A stretch of DNA of 64,000 nt, taken from assembly GCA_003666485.1 (NCBI GenBank), contig CP032931.1, positions 1,240,001 through 1,304,000 on the forward strand. The letters are read 5' to 3'. A program made the translations under genes and the position numbers. Below the pieces are notes generated by a model that saw only the letters and a list, made by a program, of their open reading frames with translations, did not search any database and was not told the DNA's origin. The DNA is from Levilactobacillus brevis. GTDB lineage: Bacteria; Bacillota; Bacilli; Lactobacillales; Lactobacillaceae. Shown piece after piece: positions 747 to 62,130 of this stretch; within the stretch, counting starts at the first letter, position 1; each line of letters opens with the position of its first letter.

Positions 747-770
747 CGGCTAGTCGCGAATTACCGCTTC

Positions 771-950
771 GGCGGCCAGGTAGCTCCACCCTGTGGGGCA
801 ACCCCGGAAGCCGAAAAGCGGTCTTCCGAGGCGCTTGAAGCCTCACTAAACCCGTGAGTCTTCAAGACGTCCCTGTTTCTAAGGCCGGGGAAATCACCCG
901 ACCTAAGAAACACGACACAGGCATCCGCACCTACCCACCAGCAGCTCAGA
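771..950 (-). repeat. Family A structured repeat, divergent copy 1
   Basis: Read on the minus strand this stretch has the order of the family A elements: hairpin 2 (GTTTCTTAGG.. / ..CCTTAGAAAC), hairpin 3 (CTTGAAG / CTTCAAG), hairpin 4 (CGGAAG / CTTCCG) with the loop ACCGCTTTTCGG, and the right-end sequence CTGGCCGCC. Its stems differ from those of other copies but pair internally. The closing stem is less clear here than in the better copies. Confidence 0.65.
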
Positions 951-1148
951 CTAGTGTATGTCATTTACAATAGTGGTCCGCTGCTTCGTGGGTGATGCTG
1001 GCTTGATCTGCTGAGTAGTGAGGGCTGGATGGTGGTGGCTTAACTATTTGGCCCTCGTGGCTACTTATGAGTTGGCATTGGCTGGGAGCATGCTATGATT
1101 AGGTGTGGCTGCTCTGCCTTGGGTCTCATTTTGGCCTTTGATGGTCGT

Positions 1149-6594: not shown

Positions 6595-6752
6595 AAGAGT
6601 GGTACGAAGGGCGGTTAGCCGGCGAGCATTAACGTCACTAAGTCAGAAATTCTGGTTTTGGATTTCGGGCTTAGTGGGGTTAAACGGAACCGGCCGCCCG
6701 GTAGTGGCACGTTTCAGCCAGCCAATTGGCCGGTCGAAACACCTTAACACAA
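6595..6752 (+). repeat. Family B repeat, divergent copy
   Basis: It begins GAGTGG..GGGCGGTTAGC and keeps GGCGAGCATTAA and GGAACCGG, like the family B copies at 20585, 25097 and 28021. The inner hairpin here is CACTAAG/CTTAGTG instead of CTGATAAGC/GCTTATCAG, and the outer stem pairs GGGCGG with CCGCCC and GCCGGC with its partner. A second hairpin, GTTTC..GAAAC, closes the right part. It fills the galK-galE gap. Confidence 0.6.
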
Positions 6753-10437: not shown

Positions 10438-10582
10438 CTATGAGATGAGTGGGTTACAGCGTCATATTGAAGGCTGGCCGCCTACCGTTTGGGAACGCTG
10501 GGGTGGACAGGTCGAGAAGCAGTCTTGACAGTTAGTGAACTTCACTCTTAGTTATGTAGTTATTGACGAGTTAAATTTGAAT
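10438..10582 (+). other. Intergenic stretch with family A fragment
   Basis: Bases 10471-10520 match, on the minus strand, the right end of a family A element (CCCAGCGTTC then GGTAGGCGGCCAGCC). The rest of the element is missing. No gene is visible here. Confidence 0.5.
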
Positions 10583-10680
10583 TGACAGGGAGTCTGGACT
10601 ACAGGTCCGGGCTTTTTGTATTTTAGGGTAAAGCTACTTTCTCATACCCAGCTAATAAAGTCAACGGTATTAATTATATA
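10583..10680 (+). repeat. 98-bp direct repeat, left copy
   Basis: This matches 11823-11921 along its whole length with about a dozen substitutions and a few single-base indels. It contains a terminator hairpin (CTGGAC..GTCCGG then TTTTT, 10592-10617) and an AT-rich tail ending TTAATTATATA. Together the two copies bracket the secreted-peptide cassette. Confidence 0.85.
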
Positions 10681-10834
10681 AGCATGCTAATAAATAGAAA
10701 GTTGGTAAGCACCTAATAACTGATTGTCTATGATTACCTCATCAAATAAATTGGTTCGGTAATTTTGGAAATACTAATATTAGCAATACGCGATAATATT
10801 AGTATCTTGCTATGAATGAGGCATCCATAAATAA

Positions 10835-10861
10835 TTGACAAAATTGATTTATAGTTATAAT
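10835..10861 (+). promoter_or_regulatory. Promoter of the secreted-peptide cassette
   Basis: TTGACA (10835-10840) is followed by TATAAT (10856-10861, spacer 15) or the overlapping TAATAT (10858-10863, spacer 17). This leaves a short leader to the ATG at 10892. A TTG codon inside the -35 box opens the same frame but is therefore not the translation start. Confidence 0.7.
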
Positions 10862-10891
10862 ATTAATGCTGTAAAAAGGGGGATGGATTAT

Positions 10892-11452
10892 ATGTTTTGT
10901 AAAAAATATGTTTTTCCATATTTAGTTTCAGGGGCATGTGTATTGGCAATTTCTAGTACCTTAGTATGTGCAGGCGGACAAGTAGTAGCAAGTGCAGATA
11001 CCGTTAATACCAATGAAGTTACATCAACGATTGTTGACGATAGTTCTGGTGGTGTAGTGGCACCTATTGATTCCAATGTTGAACAGGTTGATATGACTAA
11101 CGCTGAATTGTTGCAAAGACTACAAGTATTAGATCCAATTGGCTATAGTAAGATGCCACAGTCTTATATTCAAGGTTTATTGCGACAAGATATGATGCGT
11201 CAGGGAACGACTAAATATGTTAAAGAGAAACATGGTCATTACCGCATCTACATCAACAGTGCAATTGTTAAGGGTATTAAATATGGCTATATCGGGGTAG
11301 CGGCCTATTTAGTTGCAATTTCACCGTTGTCAGCTGGAACATCTGCGGCAGTAGGTGCTGTGATTGGAAGTGCACTTGGAAGTATCCCATCTAATAAAGG
11401 CGCATGGTTTGAATTCAGCAAATCAAAGTTAGTGAAGTATGGTCAACAATGA
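10892..11452 (+). CDS. Secreted protein of unknown function, bacteriocin-like arrangement
   Basis: The 186-aa product has a Sec signal peptide (basic MFCKK start, hydrophobic core, likely cleavage after VVASA near residue 33). The mature part is acidic then basic, and its C-terminal third is hydrophobic and Gly/Ala-rich (IGVAAYLVAI, GTSAAVGAVIGSALG), like membrane-active peptides. AAGGGGG lies nine bases before ATG 10892. Base composition is far more AT-rich than the neighbours. The stop overlaps the start of a 47-aa membrane protein, an order typical of bacteriocin plus immunity genes. I do not recognise the family, so an adhesin or wall protein is possible. Confidence 0.7.
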   Translation: MFCKKYVFPYLVSGACVLAISSTLVCAGGQVVASADTVNTNEVTSTIVDDSSGGVVAPIDSNVEQVDMTNAELLQRLQVLDPIGYSKMPQSYIQGLLRQDMMRQGTTKYVKEKHGHYRIYINSAIVKGIKYGYIGVAAYLVAISPLSAGTSAAVGAVIGSALGSIPSNKGAWFEFSKSKLVKYGQQ

Positions 11453-11592
11453 CAGTTAACAAGAAAAAGCTTATCTTGTCGATTTTAACTTGGACATTTT
11501 TGTCAGCTATATTTCTGCTCTTCAATTTAAACGCGTTATTCATTGGAGTATCTGTTGGATGGATTGTATATCTGGTGAAGATTCTCAAGTAA
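11449..11592 (+). CDS. 47-aa membrane protein, immunity-like position
   Basis: ATG 11449 overlaps the previous stop (ATGA), so translation is probably coupled. The protein starts MTVNKKK and then has two hydrophobic segments (LILSILTWTFLSAIFLLF and ALFIGVSVGWIVYLV), ending KILK. Size, topology and position resemble small immunity proteins of bacteriocin loci; that role is inference. It has the same AT-rich composition as its partner. Confidence 0.65.
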   Translation: MTVNKKKLILSILTWTFLSAIFLLFNLNALFIGVSVGWIVYLVKILK

Positions 11593-11822
11593 GCGTGTTG
11601 GTGGTTGTAAATCTTTTTGATTATTGTGAAATGAAAAAGAGACTGTCTCCAAGCGGATTGCTGATTTTTAGCAATACTGTATCCGCTAAAGACTGCTGCC
11701 AAATCAGCTGCTAACTGAGGCTAAAACGACTGTTATTAGCCAATATTTGGCGGGTAGGCGGCCAGTTCTCACTAAGAAACTGAAAACGACTAATCTTAAC
11801 ACCATGAGTTGAATATTGAATA
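11593..11822 (+). other. AT-rich stretch after the cassette with family A fragment
   Basis: A hairpin GCGGAT..ATCCGC (11654-11686) follows the 47-aa gene and may stop transcription weakly. Bases 11738-11765 are the right end of a family A element (AGCCAATATTTGGCGGG, then AGGCGGCCAG). No gene is visible. Confidence 0.45.
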
Positions 11823-11921
11823 GACAAGGAGTCTGGACAACTGGTCCAGGCTTTTTCGTATTTTGGGGGTAAAGCTACTTTCTCATATCCAACTAAGAAA
11901 GTCAATGGTGTTAATTATATA
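11823..11921 (+). repeat. 98-bp direct repeat, right copy
   Basis: Second copy of the repeat at 10583-10680. Its terminator hairpin (CTGGAC..GTCCAGG then CTTTTT, 11831-11855) differs in the loop but keeps its stem. Confidence 0.85.
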
Positions 11922-12397
11922 AATAAAATTATATTCTCCAGCTAGCTACTGCCCACAGACGCTCTCAGCGGCTGCGTCAGCCATTTTCCTACCATTACTA
12001 GTCAGCATCCTCGCCGGGGACTGTCCGGCGACTCACAGCTTGTCAGGCCCCGTGACGCGCCAGTGAATGGGCCACCCACTACCATATTTAGGCGTCGACA
12101 GGAGGTTGCCCCTAGATATGGTAGGTGGACGTCAATATTTGGGGCAGTTAGGTTGCTGACTGACCAGACGAAAATTTTTTTATTTTGTTCGCAGCTGATT
12201 CACCAACTTGATTGGCCAGGACTGTGGGTAGTTTACTACCGCCGAGTGTCGGTCGTTTGTCTGGGCCAGACGGGGCGTTCTTGTAGGGAGCAGCGTCATT
12301 GTCCAATTACAATTAATTGGGCGGACAAAAAAAGTTGCATTTTAAGCCAAATTTGTTAGTAGCGGCTCGTTTGAAAATGTCTAGGGACAATTTACTT
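11922..12397 (+). other. Gene-free stretch upstream of the ribonucleotide reductase
   Basis: There is no convincing ORF. A hairpin with arms CCACTACCATAT (near 12075) and ATATGGTAGGTGG (near 12116) is present. I looked for a cobalamin riboswitch, expected before a B12-dependent enzyme, and did not find its B12 box. Confidence 0.4.
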
Positions 12398-15423: not shown

Positions 15424-15659
15424 GGTTGAAAGCCCAGCGAAGTTCGCCTGACTCTCAGGTTGTTCTATCCAGTAATCTAGAAAAAACGCCATCTAACTTG
15501 ATGGACATAGTTGTCGCTGACGGCTGGCTAATTCCAATGAATCGGCGCTAAGCAGTGGCACTGGATCAGGTCAAACTAGACTATAGTTCACCCACTACCA
15601 GAAATTTTCAGTAGGTGGGAGAAAACGAGTTGTACTGATAACCACTAGCGTAGCCGGGA

Positions 15660-15845
15660 GTCCGCCAAATATGAGCTCAGCCGTGGGAGTTTTCTAAGCG
15701 GGTTCATGTCGCTTAGAAAACTGGCGTCTTTGAGACGTGGTCTTTCGGCTCAAAGGCGAGGTGTCGAGACCGTACTTTGGCTCGACCCGTCCGCCCACAG
15801 CGTTCCGGCTCATATTTGGCGGACGGGAGGCGGCCAGCACGCGCC
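15660..15845 (+). repeat. Family A structured repeat, type copy
   Basis: A perfect 17-bp closing stem GTCCGCCAAATATGAGC (15660-15676) pairs with 15808-15824. Inside are GTGGG/CCCAC, hairpin GTTTTCTAAGCG/CGCTTAGAAAAC, hairpin CTTTGAG/CTCAAAG, and hairpin GTCGAG/CTCGAC with the loop ACCGTACTTTGG. The right end is GGAGGCGGCCAGC. It lies between two convergent genes. The remaining 15424-15659 has only a small hairpin (CCACTAC..GTAGGTGG near 15594) and no gene. Confidence 0.85.
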
Positions 15846-15875
15846 TAAGTCGTCAGCCACTAAAAACATTTAAAC

Positions 15876-20557: not shown

Positions 20558-20584
20558 GGTACACTGAATTTAGACCAAAATAGA

Positions 20585-20756
20585 GAGAGTGGGACAAAGG
20601 GCGATTAGCTGGCGAGCATTAAGGCTGATAAGCGAATAATCCCGGGTTTGGATTGTTTGCTTATCAGTTTTAAGCGGAACCAGCTGCCTTTTGTCCCAGG
20701 TTTCAACACCAGATATTCGGAGACACAAAGGGCCTGAGACTTTTGTCCTAGGCCCA
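20585..20756 (+). repeat. Family B repeat, full copy
   Basis: The element starts GAGAGTGGGACAAAGGGCG and ends CTAGGCCC. The outer stem pairs GGGACAAA..TTAGCTGG with CCAGCTGCCTTTTGTCCC. The inner stem CTGATAAGC/GCTTATCAG encloses AATCC..GGATT. A second half holds GGGCCT..AGGCCC. It is nearly identical to the inverted copy at 25097-25268. Confidence 0.85.
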
Positions 20757-23194: not shown

Positions 23195-23392
23195 GAACTG
23201 GCCGCCTCCCGTTCGCCAAATATGGGTCGGAACGCGGTGGGCGGACGGGTCGAGCCAGAGGGCGGTCTCGACGCCTCGTCTTTGAGCCGAAATTCACGTC
23301 TCAAAGACGCCAGTTTTAAAAGCGGCATGAACCATGTCGCTTTTAAAACTCCCACGGCTGAACCCATATTTGGCGAACTCCGGCTATGGGGA
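23195..23392 (-). repeat. Family A structured repeat, minus orientation
   Basis: A perfect 17-bp closing stem GTTCGCCAAATATGGGT (23211-23227) pairs with 23362-23378. Read on the minus strand it has hairpin GTTTTAAAAGCG/CGCTTTTAAAAC, hairpin CTTTGAG/CTCAAAG, and hairpin GTCGAG/CTCGAC with loop ACCGCCCTCTGG. Confidence 0.85.
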
Positions 23393-25052: not shown

Positions 25053-25096
25053 TTTCACCCTGATCATCCCTCATATCTTTCTAGTCATTTTTACGA

Positions 25097-25268
25097 CGGG
25101 TCTAGGACAAAAGTCTCAGGCCCTTTGTGTCTCCGAATATCTGGTGTTGAAACCTGGGACAAAAGGCAGCTGGTTCCGCTTAAAACTGATAAGCAAACAA
25201 TCCAAACCCGGGATTATTCGCTTATCAGTCTTAATGCTCGCCAGCTAACCGCCTTTTGTCCCACTCTC
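25097..25268 (-). repeat. Family B repeat, inverted copy
   Basis: Its reverse complement is almost identical to 20585-20756, including AATCCCGGGTTTGGATT in the inner loop. The stretch 25269-25550 that follows holds no convincing gene. Confidence 0.88.
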
Positions 25269-25551
25269 GCTCAGTCGTCTTCGATTAATATCCGATATCA
25301 ACTATATACATTATCAGCGGCCACGACAAGCGCCAGACGGGGCTTCATGGCCAATATTACGATGGTAATAACGATAGCCACGGCTTTTGTTCGGGGTGTT
25401 TTCAAAAAGATTAAAACTTAACGACACCTGTAATGTGGCTGTAACATTGCCGTGGCGGGGCTGAATGGCTCTTTCATGAAAATCCTTGTGAAAGGAACCA
25501 GGCCTTGACTTGGTAACGGTTCAGTAAATTTATTCCGGTGATGGCCACACG

Positions 25552-28020: not shown

Positions 28021-28150
28021 TGGAGAGTGGGACAAAAGGCGGTTAGTTGGCGAGCATTAAGGCTGATAAGCGGAACCAGCTGCCTTTTGGCCCAGGTTTC
28101 AACACCAGATATTCGGAGACACAAAGGGCCTGAGACTTTTGTCCCAGACC
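28021..28150 (+). repeat. Family B repeat with internal deletion
   Basis: Both ends match the full copy at 20585, but the inner hairpin is missing. The sequence jumps from GGCTGATAAGCG straight to GAACCAGCTG, consistent with a deletion between two AAGCG repeats present in the full copies. The right end runs up against the start region of the permease gene. Confidence 0.85.
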
Positions 28151-28240
28151 CCACGCGCTATTATTCGGAAACACCGTGAACCGGGGGAATCAGACCCGGT
28201 CCCATTTGGCGGATTATTTTTTGAAAGTGAGGAATTTGGC

Positions 28241-53471: not shown

Positions 53472-53720
53472 ACAGCCGCCTGTCGTTGCGCGAAAGTCTA
53501 GGCTGGAACGCTGGTTAAATTGGCTAAACTGGATGCCTGCGGCTGCTAAAAACTCCACCTGCTATGGGGAACACCTTCAGCCAAAAGGCGGGCTTCCAGT
53601 TCGCTTGTGCTAGGTTACTGGGTCGACACAGCTGGCTACGTTCTTGGCAGCCTCCGGCGGGTTGGTGCGTGAGGGCAACTGGTTCTAAGCGCTGGTTGTC
53701 ATTGACAAGTCTTACTGTAG

Positions 53721-54342: not shown

Positions 54343-54597
54343 GTGGCAGCTGAACTGAAATTTTGTCCGCATTGTGGCGCGGCTGTGAGTGCGACTGATA
54401 CGGTTTGTCCGCAGTGCCAGACCGACCTGCGACCTTACCGGGAGTCCCCCAAGCCGCCAGCTAAGAGTCAGAAATTAAATTTGTCATCGCTGTACGCCAA
54501 CCCGTACCGTGAAGGCATGAAACGTTTGCAGGCCAAAGAAGGGGCTACCACTAGCAAGTCAAAACGGCGCTGGCACTGGCCCTGGTCAAAGGAGTGA
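54343..54597 (+). CDS. Zinc-ribbon protein
   Basis: The 84-aa protein has an N-terminal zinc ribbon C8-x2-C11...C22-x2-C25, then a basic, proline-containing tail ending WHWPWSKE. It may bind nucleic acid or protein. The start is GTG 54343 after AAGGAGG. It lies 12 bases after the membrane protein gene and five bases before the macrodomain gene, so the three are probably one operon. Confidence 0.8.
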
Positions 54598-60960: not shown

Positions 60961-62130
60961 ATGAGAAATTTACATCTCAGTCACTGGGCCATGGCAGTTG
61001 GCATGCTGGTCGCGCTGGGCGGTACGGCCACAACCACGGTGCCCGCCGAAGCTGCGGCTTATCACACCGTTAGCACTAAGAAAATCAAGAAGACGGCCTA
61101 TCACAAGAAACACAGTAGCGGGGCCATCTACAATAAAGCGCACACCAAAAAGGTCAGCAGCTTAACGACCCATCCCCACACCACGTGGTACGCCACCAAG
61201 CAGGCCACGCTGAAACACGGCAAGTCCACCGGTATTTACCTGTACGTGCAGAATAGTAAGCACAGTGTGAAGGGCTGGATTTGGCACGGCTACCTGAAGA
61301 AGGGCAAGGCACCATTTGTCTTGACCAAGGCCAAGGCGGCGGTCGCCATGGACGCCAAGACGGGGAAGGTCGTCTGGTCCAAGCACGCCAACACCGCGCG
61401 GCCCATCGCTTCCGTCACTAAAATCATGACATTGTACCTGACACTGAAGAAAATCGATGGCAAGAAGAGTCGCTGGAATCACAAGGTCAAGATTACCAGC
61501 CGCGGATTGGTGTCGATGAGTCGGAGCGCCGATTGTGGCGGTTTTCATTTTAAATTAAATCACCGCTACACTGTTAAACAGCTGTATTACGCGGCCTTCC
61601 TGGATTCATCGAACAACGCCGCGATTGCCCTGGGCAAATGGGTCAGCGGCAGTAATAGCAAGTTTGTCCGGAAGATGAACGCCCAAGCCAAGTCTTGGAA
61701 ACTGGGCAGGGCCCACTTTGTCTCGGCATCGGGTCTGGAAAATAGTGACCTGCGGCGCTTCGGCTATGCTTATGGCAAGGCCAACACCAACAAGGTCTCC
61801 GCCAAGGACGTGGCGTTGATGGCGCGGCACCTGATAACGGCCTATCCCCGCGTCTTAAAGGACGGCAAGATTGGCTCGATGAAGGTGAACGGCCAAGTTT
61901 GTCACAACTACAACAACCTCTTGAAGGGGCGCAAATACTACCGCGCTTCTTTGAAGGTCGACGGCTTGAAGACGGGCTACACGCCAAGCGCGGGCTACTG
62001 CTTCGTGGGTACCGGCCACAAGACGGGCAAACACCGCGTCATCACAGTGGTTTTGCATGACATCAACGAGTTCACGGAGACGCGGTCGTTGATGGAACAT
62101 GCTTACCGGCTGAGTAGTATGAGCAACTAG
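60961..62130 (+). CDS. Secreted D-alanyl-D-alanine carboxypeptidase (S11), first copy
   Basis: The 389-aa protein has a signal peptide (cleavage near residue 32), an SH3-like wall-binding segment (residues 35-115, TTWYATKQATLKHGKS.. WIWHGYLKKGK), then a PBP5-type domain. The active-site S151-V-T-K154, S216-S-N218 and K337-T-G339 are intact. It trims the terminal D-Ala of peptidoglycan. The usual C-terminal PBP5 domain and anchor are missing; the binding module sits at the N-terminus instead. A close paralogue follows. Confidence 0.9.
   Translation: MRNLHLSHWAMAVGMLVALGGTATTTVPAEAAAYHTVSTKKIKKTAYHKKHSSGAIYNKAHTKKVSSLTTHPHTTWYATKQATLKHGKSTGIYLYVQNSKHSVKGWIWHGYLKKGKAPFVLTKAKAAVAMDAKTGKVVWSKHANTARPIASVTKIMTLYLTLKKIDGKKSRWNHKVKITSRGLVSMSRSADCGGFHFKLNHRYTVKQLYYAAFLDSSNNAAIALGKWVSGSNSKFVRKMNAQAKSWKLGRAHFVSASGLENSDLRRFGYAYGKANTNKVSAKDVALMARHLITAYPRVLKDGKIGSMKVNGQVCHNYNNLLKGRKYYRASLKVDGLKTGYTPSAGYCFVGTGHKTGKHRVITVVLHDINEFTETRSLMEHAYRLSSMSN

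Follow-up and report, generated by a model that had tools for sequence, protein, structure and literature searches.

The stretch of DNA analysed here (the window) is a 64-kb part of the 3.1-Mb genome of Levilactobacillus brevis. It carries seven strong copies of a structured sequence, family A1 (146-219 bits with the covariance model R1), and three copies of a sister family, A2, recovered with the model R2. R1 was built from 24 sequences, among them all seven A1 copies of the window, and R2 from 11 sequences, among them the copy at 1179; the A1 scores in the window and the R2 score at 1179 are therefore high by construction, and E-values from R1, R2 and the genus-wide model R3 (29 sequences) are rough, as calibration was short. 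All nine places listed in an earlier note on this DNA are real, seven by R1 and two by R2: the two at the start of the window reach only 38-41 bits with R1 and 97 and 230 bits with R2, which assigns them to A2. The A2 copy at 53519-53666 on the minus strand (90 bits) was absent from that list. The note had taken the 165-200-nt element as the whole unit; it rather forms one of the two arms of a larger unit, and the right end described, GGCGGCCAG, is not where the mobile unit ends. The features of the window are the following.

750..953, minus strand: A2 arm (diverged), left arm of the divergent pair with the 1179 arm; R2 97.1 bits, R1 41.4 bits
1179..1385, plus strand: A2 arm, right arm of the pair with the 750 arm; R2 229.9 bits, R1 37.9 bits
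15429..15877 (449 bp): inserted unit round the 15649 arm, against 36 bp in genome G030; boundaries approximate, as the short intergenic flanks have diverged and no duplication is readable
15425-15871 (447 bp): the same inserted unit set against genome G033, which has 34 bp
15649..15839, plus strand: A1 arm, the copy on which the earlier note centred; R1 219.4 bits, E 1.5e-58; fold -104.5 kcal/mol, z -6.36
23196..23388, minus strand: A1 arm, left arm of the divergent pair with the 23700 arm; R1 216.3 bits
23700..23882, plus strand: A1 arm (183-nt subfamily), right arm of the pair with the 23196 arm, 312 nt apart; R1 146.0 bits
53519..53666, minus strand: A2 arm (shortened), left arm of the divergent pair with the 53716 arm; R2 89.9 bits
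53716..53900, plus strand: A1 arm, right arm of the pair with the 53519 arm, 50 nt apart; R1 147.7 bits
56158..56350, plus strand: A1 arm; R1 203.3 bits
59803..59985, plus strand: A1 arm; R1 149.8 bits
62348..62535, plus strand: A1 arm; R1 178.2 bits

Other repeats were seen alongside the arms. A second interspersed repeat of about 100-180 bp (GAGAGTGGGACAAA...) lies in the window at 6596-6698, 20583-20754, 25089-25271 and 28023-28151; it is absent at 20583, 25089 and 28023 in G030 and at 20583 and 25089 in G033, and the flanks of the copy at 20583 share AAAATA (read by eye). At L104:12880-13087 the second hairpin of an A1 arm is replaced by an apparent piece of this repeat (GAGTGTGACAAC...GCGGAACCAGTTGCC), a repeat within a repeat. 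Separately, the region 10443-12109 of the window contains two related stretches (10621-10681 and 11862-11922, 89% identical); in G030 this region has an A1/A2 pair instead.

The predicted architecture of the arm, a long closing stem enclosing three hairpins, is given both by the fold of a single copy and by the alignment. Folding of the copy at 15649-15839 gives -104.5 kcal/mol (z -6.4), a value equalled by none of 200 shuffled sequences; its complement folds nearly as well (z -6.9), so that folding energy alone picks no strand. Covariation around conserved loops, the central claim of the earlier note, proved to be very strong in both families, in the R1 and R2 alignments, against shuffles and in the in-place comparison described below. 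The 24-sequence A1 alignment comprises 57 pairs, 27 of them with double changes. In larger alignments, which were fitted to their models and lean towards them, 97.1% of 5214 cells are paired in A1 (95 copies from three species; double changes at 39 of 57 pairs) and 96.3% of 2634 cells in A2 (43 copies; double changes at 43 of 62 pairs). No measure of covariation was reached in any of 500 shuffles for either family, and slid structures, used as a control for A1, gave only 29-46% pairing. A MAFFT alignment of 29 genus-wide sequences (A9), which was not fitted to a model, shows double changes at 39 of 48 pairs. Covariation of this strength with conserved loops argues for selection on a folded strand, and the arms are not merely a decaying repeat. 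The fold is also without a counterpart in Rfam, as the earlier note had supposed: at the gathering score, the window contains only a purine riboswitch, a tRNA and a TPP riboswitch, none of them at an arm, and one arm searched with its flanks at E<=1 returned only a miRNA model (18.6 of 93 bits).

The identity of the folded strand can be approached through the mismatches, since every G-U reads as A-C on the opposite strand and equal counts are expected without strand-specific selection. Among pairs with a Watson-Crick share of 80% or more, G-U exceeds A-C by 73:31 in A1 and 54:16 in A2, or by 30:21 and 28:15 when each pair and type is counted once; per A1 copy, G-U is more frequent in 57, equally frequent in 32 and less frequent in 6. 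This excess indicates that the strand listed is the folded strand. Between closest copies, double changes are far more numerous than expected and nearly always keep the pair: 90 against 9.3 expected in A1, with 84 kept (45 pairs of copies, mean identity 88%), and 40 against 4.5 expected in A2, with 39 kept (17 pairs of copies). At 87-92% identity, 27 of the 36 kept double changes in A1 are transitions, the type that passes through G-U, and 9 are transversions.

Neighbouring arms mostly face away from each other. Among 39 neighbouring arm pairs no more than 700 nt apart, 33 are divergent (5'-to-5'), five tandem and one convergent, a divergent excess with a binomial p of 8e-15 against 25% when copies are taken as independent; all p-values of the analysis assume independent copies or cells, although copies and cells are related. 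Twenty of the 33 divergent pairs join an A1 with an A2 arm, 12 join two A1 arms and one joins two A2 arms, with gaps of at most 248 nt in 28 of them; for 32 of 104 arms, no partner was recognised within 700 nt. Similar divergent spacing was found in G016, G136, G233 and G280, which represent other species and genera. Whole units align poorly outside the arms with MAFFT. Judged by gene calls from a simple hexamer script, 60 A1 arms are intergenic with one overlap and lie in any orientation to genes; a gene usually lies closer to the 3' end of the arm than to its 5' end, one reason being that the second arm lies on the 5' side. At one locus, the arms at 155904 and 156338 (coordinates of the joined own sequence) and those at 54435 and 54711 in G033 appear to have exchanged closest counterparts, one of them inverted, as if arms could flip or recombine within a unit.

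The divergent arrangement would also suit arms that are independent small-RNA genes, each with its own promoter in the spacer and firing outwards both ways, and the weak conservation seen over some 18 nt before the arm (41 copies) is in keeping with this. Set against it, spacers share little sequence save in recent copies, no discrete transcript is known, and two units scanned contain no sigma-70-like promoter (0.2 and 0.5 expected by chance, a weak test), a result by which the promoter was also rejected as the function of the unit. Such free-standing genes are considered improbable. An intrinsic terminator was likewise rejected as the function, as the two units have three and one terminator-like sites (0.7 expected in each), and the right end of the sense arm has none of these.

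Beyond the arms, the units have the ends of a mobile element. The sequence TTGCAACCTTTAGT, or a near match, lies 41-91 nt beyond the 3' ends of 12 arms, and its complement, ACTAAAGGTTGCAA, occurs in this genome, at no more than one mismatch, at 18 forward and 15 reverse sites, compared with 3 and 0 for a reversed-pattern control. Six complete units of 376-617 bp have ACTAAAGGTTGCAA as inverted ends, five of them from the end search and the sixth at L107:16895-17327. Four of the six are flanked by an exact 6-bp target duplication (AAAATA, TAAACA, GAGTTG and TACTTA), one by a duplication that differs by one letter and one by none; these, like those of G016 below, were read by eye first and then checked by script. 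Recognisable terminal inverted repeats are confined to a minority of copies, and most arms have none: at no more than two mismatches, 580 kb of own sequence, with about 104 arms, holds 24 end sites, and 12 of these follow an arm at a distance of up to 300 nt. The exact end is also species-specific, 34 other genomes having 0-2 exact sites apiece and this genome 16. The units of G016, about 610-627 bp long, are bounded by CTGAAGGTTGAAAG and its complement, both ends being recognised in three of six units fetched; two of these units show the duplications TAAGGC and TAAGAT, in one only with a two-base shift. Insertion is also visible against empty sites, as for the unit round the 15649 arm and for the joined own stretch 61461-62020, where 560 bp face 15 bp in G030.

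The two-armed unit is thus a MITE-like element, and the earlier reading that it is not a MITE is not supported in view of the six units with terminal inverted repeats, the four exact 6-bp duplications and the distant relatives in f2, another family of the order, which lie in MITEs of 259-283 bp; 9 of 11 such copies are flanked by an exact 8- or 9-bp duplication (L271 and L279, both among the 11, being one locus in two genomes). The earlier note had set a folded element under selection against a MITE with target-site duplications and a transposase. The MITE and the target duplications are present, a matching transposase was not found in this species, and both readings can hold at once. Complete units of 376-617 bp are too short for a transposase gene, and a search of this genome at no more than one mismatch showed neither facing ends separated by 0.7-4 kb nor an autonomous partner. 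Nor did the search for an autonomous unit with arms round a gene give a signal, as the own sequence sampled has 2 divergent, 12 tandem and 8 convergent cases of neighbouring arms at a distance of 0.7-4 kb. In G056, a 1524-bp element seen twice has a left end that is nearly that of one sort of f2 MITE; its 473-aa frame is a DDE_Tnp_ISL3 protein (PF01610, E 1.9e-53), and R3 finds no arm in it. The ISL3 family fits the f2 MITEs by ends and by 8- or 9-bp duplications. The units of Levilactobacillus differ in their ends and in the length of the duplication (6 bp), so that ISL3 is not established as their mover.

An element of this kind may need its fold for mobility only, as single-stranded DNA or as a shape bound by a transposase, with inserted copies inert and with paired changes that were already present in active source copies or arose by hairpin-templated repair. 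The inverted arms inside units with terminal repeats are consistent with this, and so are the 9 of 36 transversions among kept double changes, which cannot pass through G-U and fit templated repair or recombination between copies. G-T is, moreover, better tolerated than A-C in DNA too. Templated repair, in contrast, would give no preference for G-U over A-C, the terminal repeats and target duplication point to double-stranded, DDE-type transposition, and arms stay paired while recognisable terminal repeats are rare.

The fate of arms after insertion bears directly on this alternative. By a hand tally, 28 sites are occupied in 220 kb, at 17 of which G033 also has an arm and at 11 none; several of the 17 shared sites hold the other arm of what seems to be one ancestral pair. 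Of nine slots compared, six are one-to-one; the other three, at 155904, 217906 and 214014 of the joined own sequence, have arms of another type or orientation (identity 0.72, 0.44 and 0.62) and were left out of the in-place counts. At the six one-to-one loci, arms are 80-94% identical, as opposed to 64-81% for surroundings that have many gaps and include some coding sequence. Six orthologous arms, picked by eye among the 17 shared slots, differ between the two species by 16 double changes against 2.2 expected; 15 of the 16 keep the pair. Single changes break a pair in 12 of 22 cases and keep it in 10. Two arms of usable slots, at 206043 and 48324, were likewise left out of these counts, their G033 counterparts being cut. 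Such compensation indicates that pairing is kept where a copy sits and not in source copies alone. Both the compensation and the higher identity of arms than of surroundings speak against inert insertions, and a fold that serves mobility only is regarded as unlikely.

The family is abundant in this genome and reaches beyond the species. R1 recovers at least 150 A1 copies (reaching down to E 5.5e-39), all on the chromosome contig, and the best 150 are without chromosomal orientation bias (80 on the plus strand). Only 2 of these best 150 lie in positions 1-250000 of the chromosome, other 250-kb bins having 8-21. The contiguous 220 kb round the window contain 41 arms (28 A1 and 13 A2), which extrapolates to an estimated several hundred arms per genome; the estimate was made from this region, as 20 further stretches were partly placed on known matches and their density is biased upwards. 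Among 58 genomes, R1 matches 33, namely 33 of 35 of the genus (this genome included) and none of 23 from other families of the order, two of which (G035 and G056) R3 does match; the genus members G021 and G031 match neither R1 nor R3. Among 295 genomes of the order, R3 matches at least 18: three Levilactobacillus, nine in four genera of the same family and six in family f2. These are lower bounds, as the survey took eight candidates per genome under strict filters, and it found no match in other genera nor in at least one member of a carrier genus, G176. Across 398 genomes of the class, matches were confined to this genome and a single genome of f2. Matches in f2 are weaker, with a best E of 3.5e-9 to 5.5e-4 in each genome, and the membership of these relatives in the arm family is less certain. 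Twelve arms folded from other genera have the same plan with different stems (for example AGCTGTG/CACAGC, AGCCATG/CATGGC and AGTGGTG/CACCAC) and similar loop letters. A pattern derived from the arms matches at least 95 stretches in named genomes, labelled, among the matches listed, as Levilactobacillus, Lactobacillus sp. HBUAS51381 and an uncultured Lactobacillus sp. bin. Searches of plasmids with four different arms and of phages with two arms gave no match in sets from which records near this genome may be absent.

The same survey bears on the movers other than a DDE enzyme. REP/RAYT systems are defined by a GTAG/CGTC foot on a 20-40-bp palindrome, according to the published definition (PMC3733652), and GTAG-footed hairpins moved by a Y1 (TnpA-REP) transposase could be envisaged here: in this species the arms start with GTAG (95-98% per base, 41 copies) and are, like REP and BIME sequences, palindromic and intergenic. 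The foot is not kept across the genus, where TTAG, AAGC and GAGC are found; PF01797 is present in 23 of 35 genus genomes but not in G030, which has at least 44 arm matches; and the size (an arm of about 190 nt) and three-hairpin fold differ. The arms are not a member of this class, and such an origin is very improbable. An element copied from RNA and mobilised by a reverse transcriptase would agree with the strand-specific, RNA-like selection, but RVT_1 occurs in only 10 of 35 genus genomes, and terminal inverted repeats with target duplications indicate DNA transposition, so that this origin is given very little credence. As movers, both Y1 transposase and reverse transcriptase were rejected because neither tracks the element.

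Structured MITEs are a known kind of element. Stem-loop repeat families include Lac-1 (type G) of Lactobacillus johnsonii and Efa-1 and Efa-2 of Enterococcus faecalis, in the description cited (PMC2267715). In the Bacillus cereus group, the intergenic families bcr1-bcr18 include MITE-like members (bcr1-bcr3) and others with a conserved RNA fold (bcr10 and bcr18); transcription in two strains is reported for 84 of 165 and 62 of 155 bcr copies of all families, and a correlation with the half-life of mRNA is described for bcr3 (PMC3446304). As described there, bcr elements are without the two-armed inverted architecture and belong to another host group. BOX, RUP and SPRITE of Streptococcus pneumoniae are folded and MITE-like, BOX being modular and sometimes transcribed (PMC3049150). 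By that description, BOX consists of boxA-B-C modules whose own terminal repeats pair together, without inverted cloverleaf arms (PMC3049150). The Correia elements (CREE/NEMIS) of Neisseria, a MITE, bind RNase III and are cleaved or protected by it (PMC2649163, PMC10969869), and they serve as a model for the function proposed here for the arms. We know of no covarying arms in Correia elements, the size and single-body fold of which differ from those of the arms. The literature searched contains no paper describing a two-armed family, and the absence from print refers to that search. New features are the pairing of two unlike cloverleaf arms in inverted orientation, covariation of such depth, occurrence in five genera, the preference for one strand and the in-place compensation.

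Taken together, the arms are best read as parts of a non-autonomous, MITE-like family with paired arms that is spread by a DDE transposase and whose fold acts as RNA on neighbouring transcripts, a reading to which we assign a probability of roughly 0.6. Complete copies measure about 376-620 bp, and each unit has two structured arms, usually one A1 and one A2, about 190-207 nt long. The arms are inverted, with their 5' ends facing each other over a spacer that mostly measures 50-250 nt, and short terminal inverted repeats enclose the whole. This anatomy, the copy number, the covariation, the strand preference, the gain or lack of whole units between species and the conservation in place were observed directly. 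Units would be spread in trans by a DDE-type transposase, and selection would act on the arm as RNA. As the arms point outwards, read-through from either neighbouring gene would pass, as the last arm, one in the sense, foldable orientation, and the RNA would leave the unit with one stable cloverleaf-like fold. This fold may be recognised by a host RNA-binding factor or ribonuclease, to our knowledge not yet matched by any trans-acting protein, and would then set the 3'-end processing or the stability of neighbouring transcripts, a role that could make insertions tolerable and later useful. A processing or stability function is favoured on the precedents of RNase III cleavage and mRNA half-life for MITE RNA, and is put at about one chance in two; a purely transpositional fold or free-standing small RNAs have lower odds. 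Broken pairs are somewhat rarer in copies with an upstream gene in sense (2.2%, 33 copies) than in others (3.7%, 26 copies), a trend that is not significant per copy (p = 0.14) and makes for a weak link to read-through.

A more far-reaching and quite tentative proposal, which we rate as rather doubtful, is that of a mobile bidirectional RNA device: an outward-facing cloverleaf pair, carried by a transposon to hundreds of sites and selected site by site, might have built a post-transcriptional network that spans the genus and is read by a single host factor, while unrelated transposon ends would carry its distant relatives in another family. If the preferred reading of a MITE-like family with an RNA-acting fold is true, common fermentation bacteria would carry several hundred copies per genome of an undescribed structured RNA without an Rfam model. 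Natural copies with stems paired or broken in known gene contexts would make it possible to test whether MITEs in bacteria are junk or have been exapted as RNA regulators, with one fold at hundreds of loci that may be scored together.
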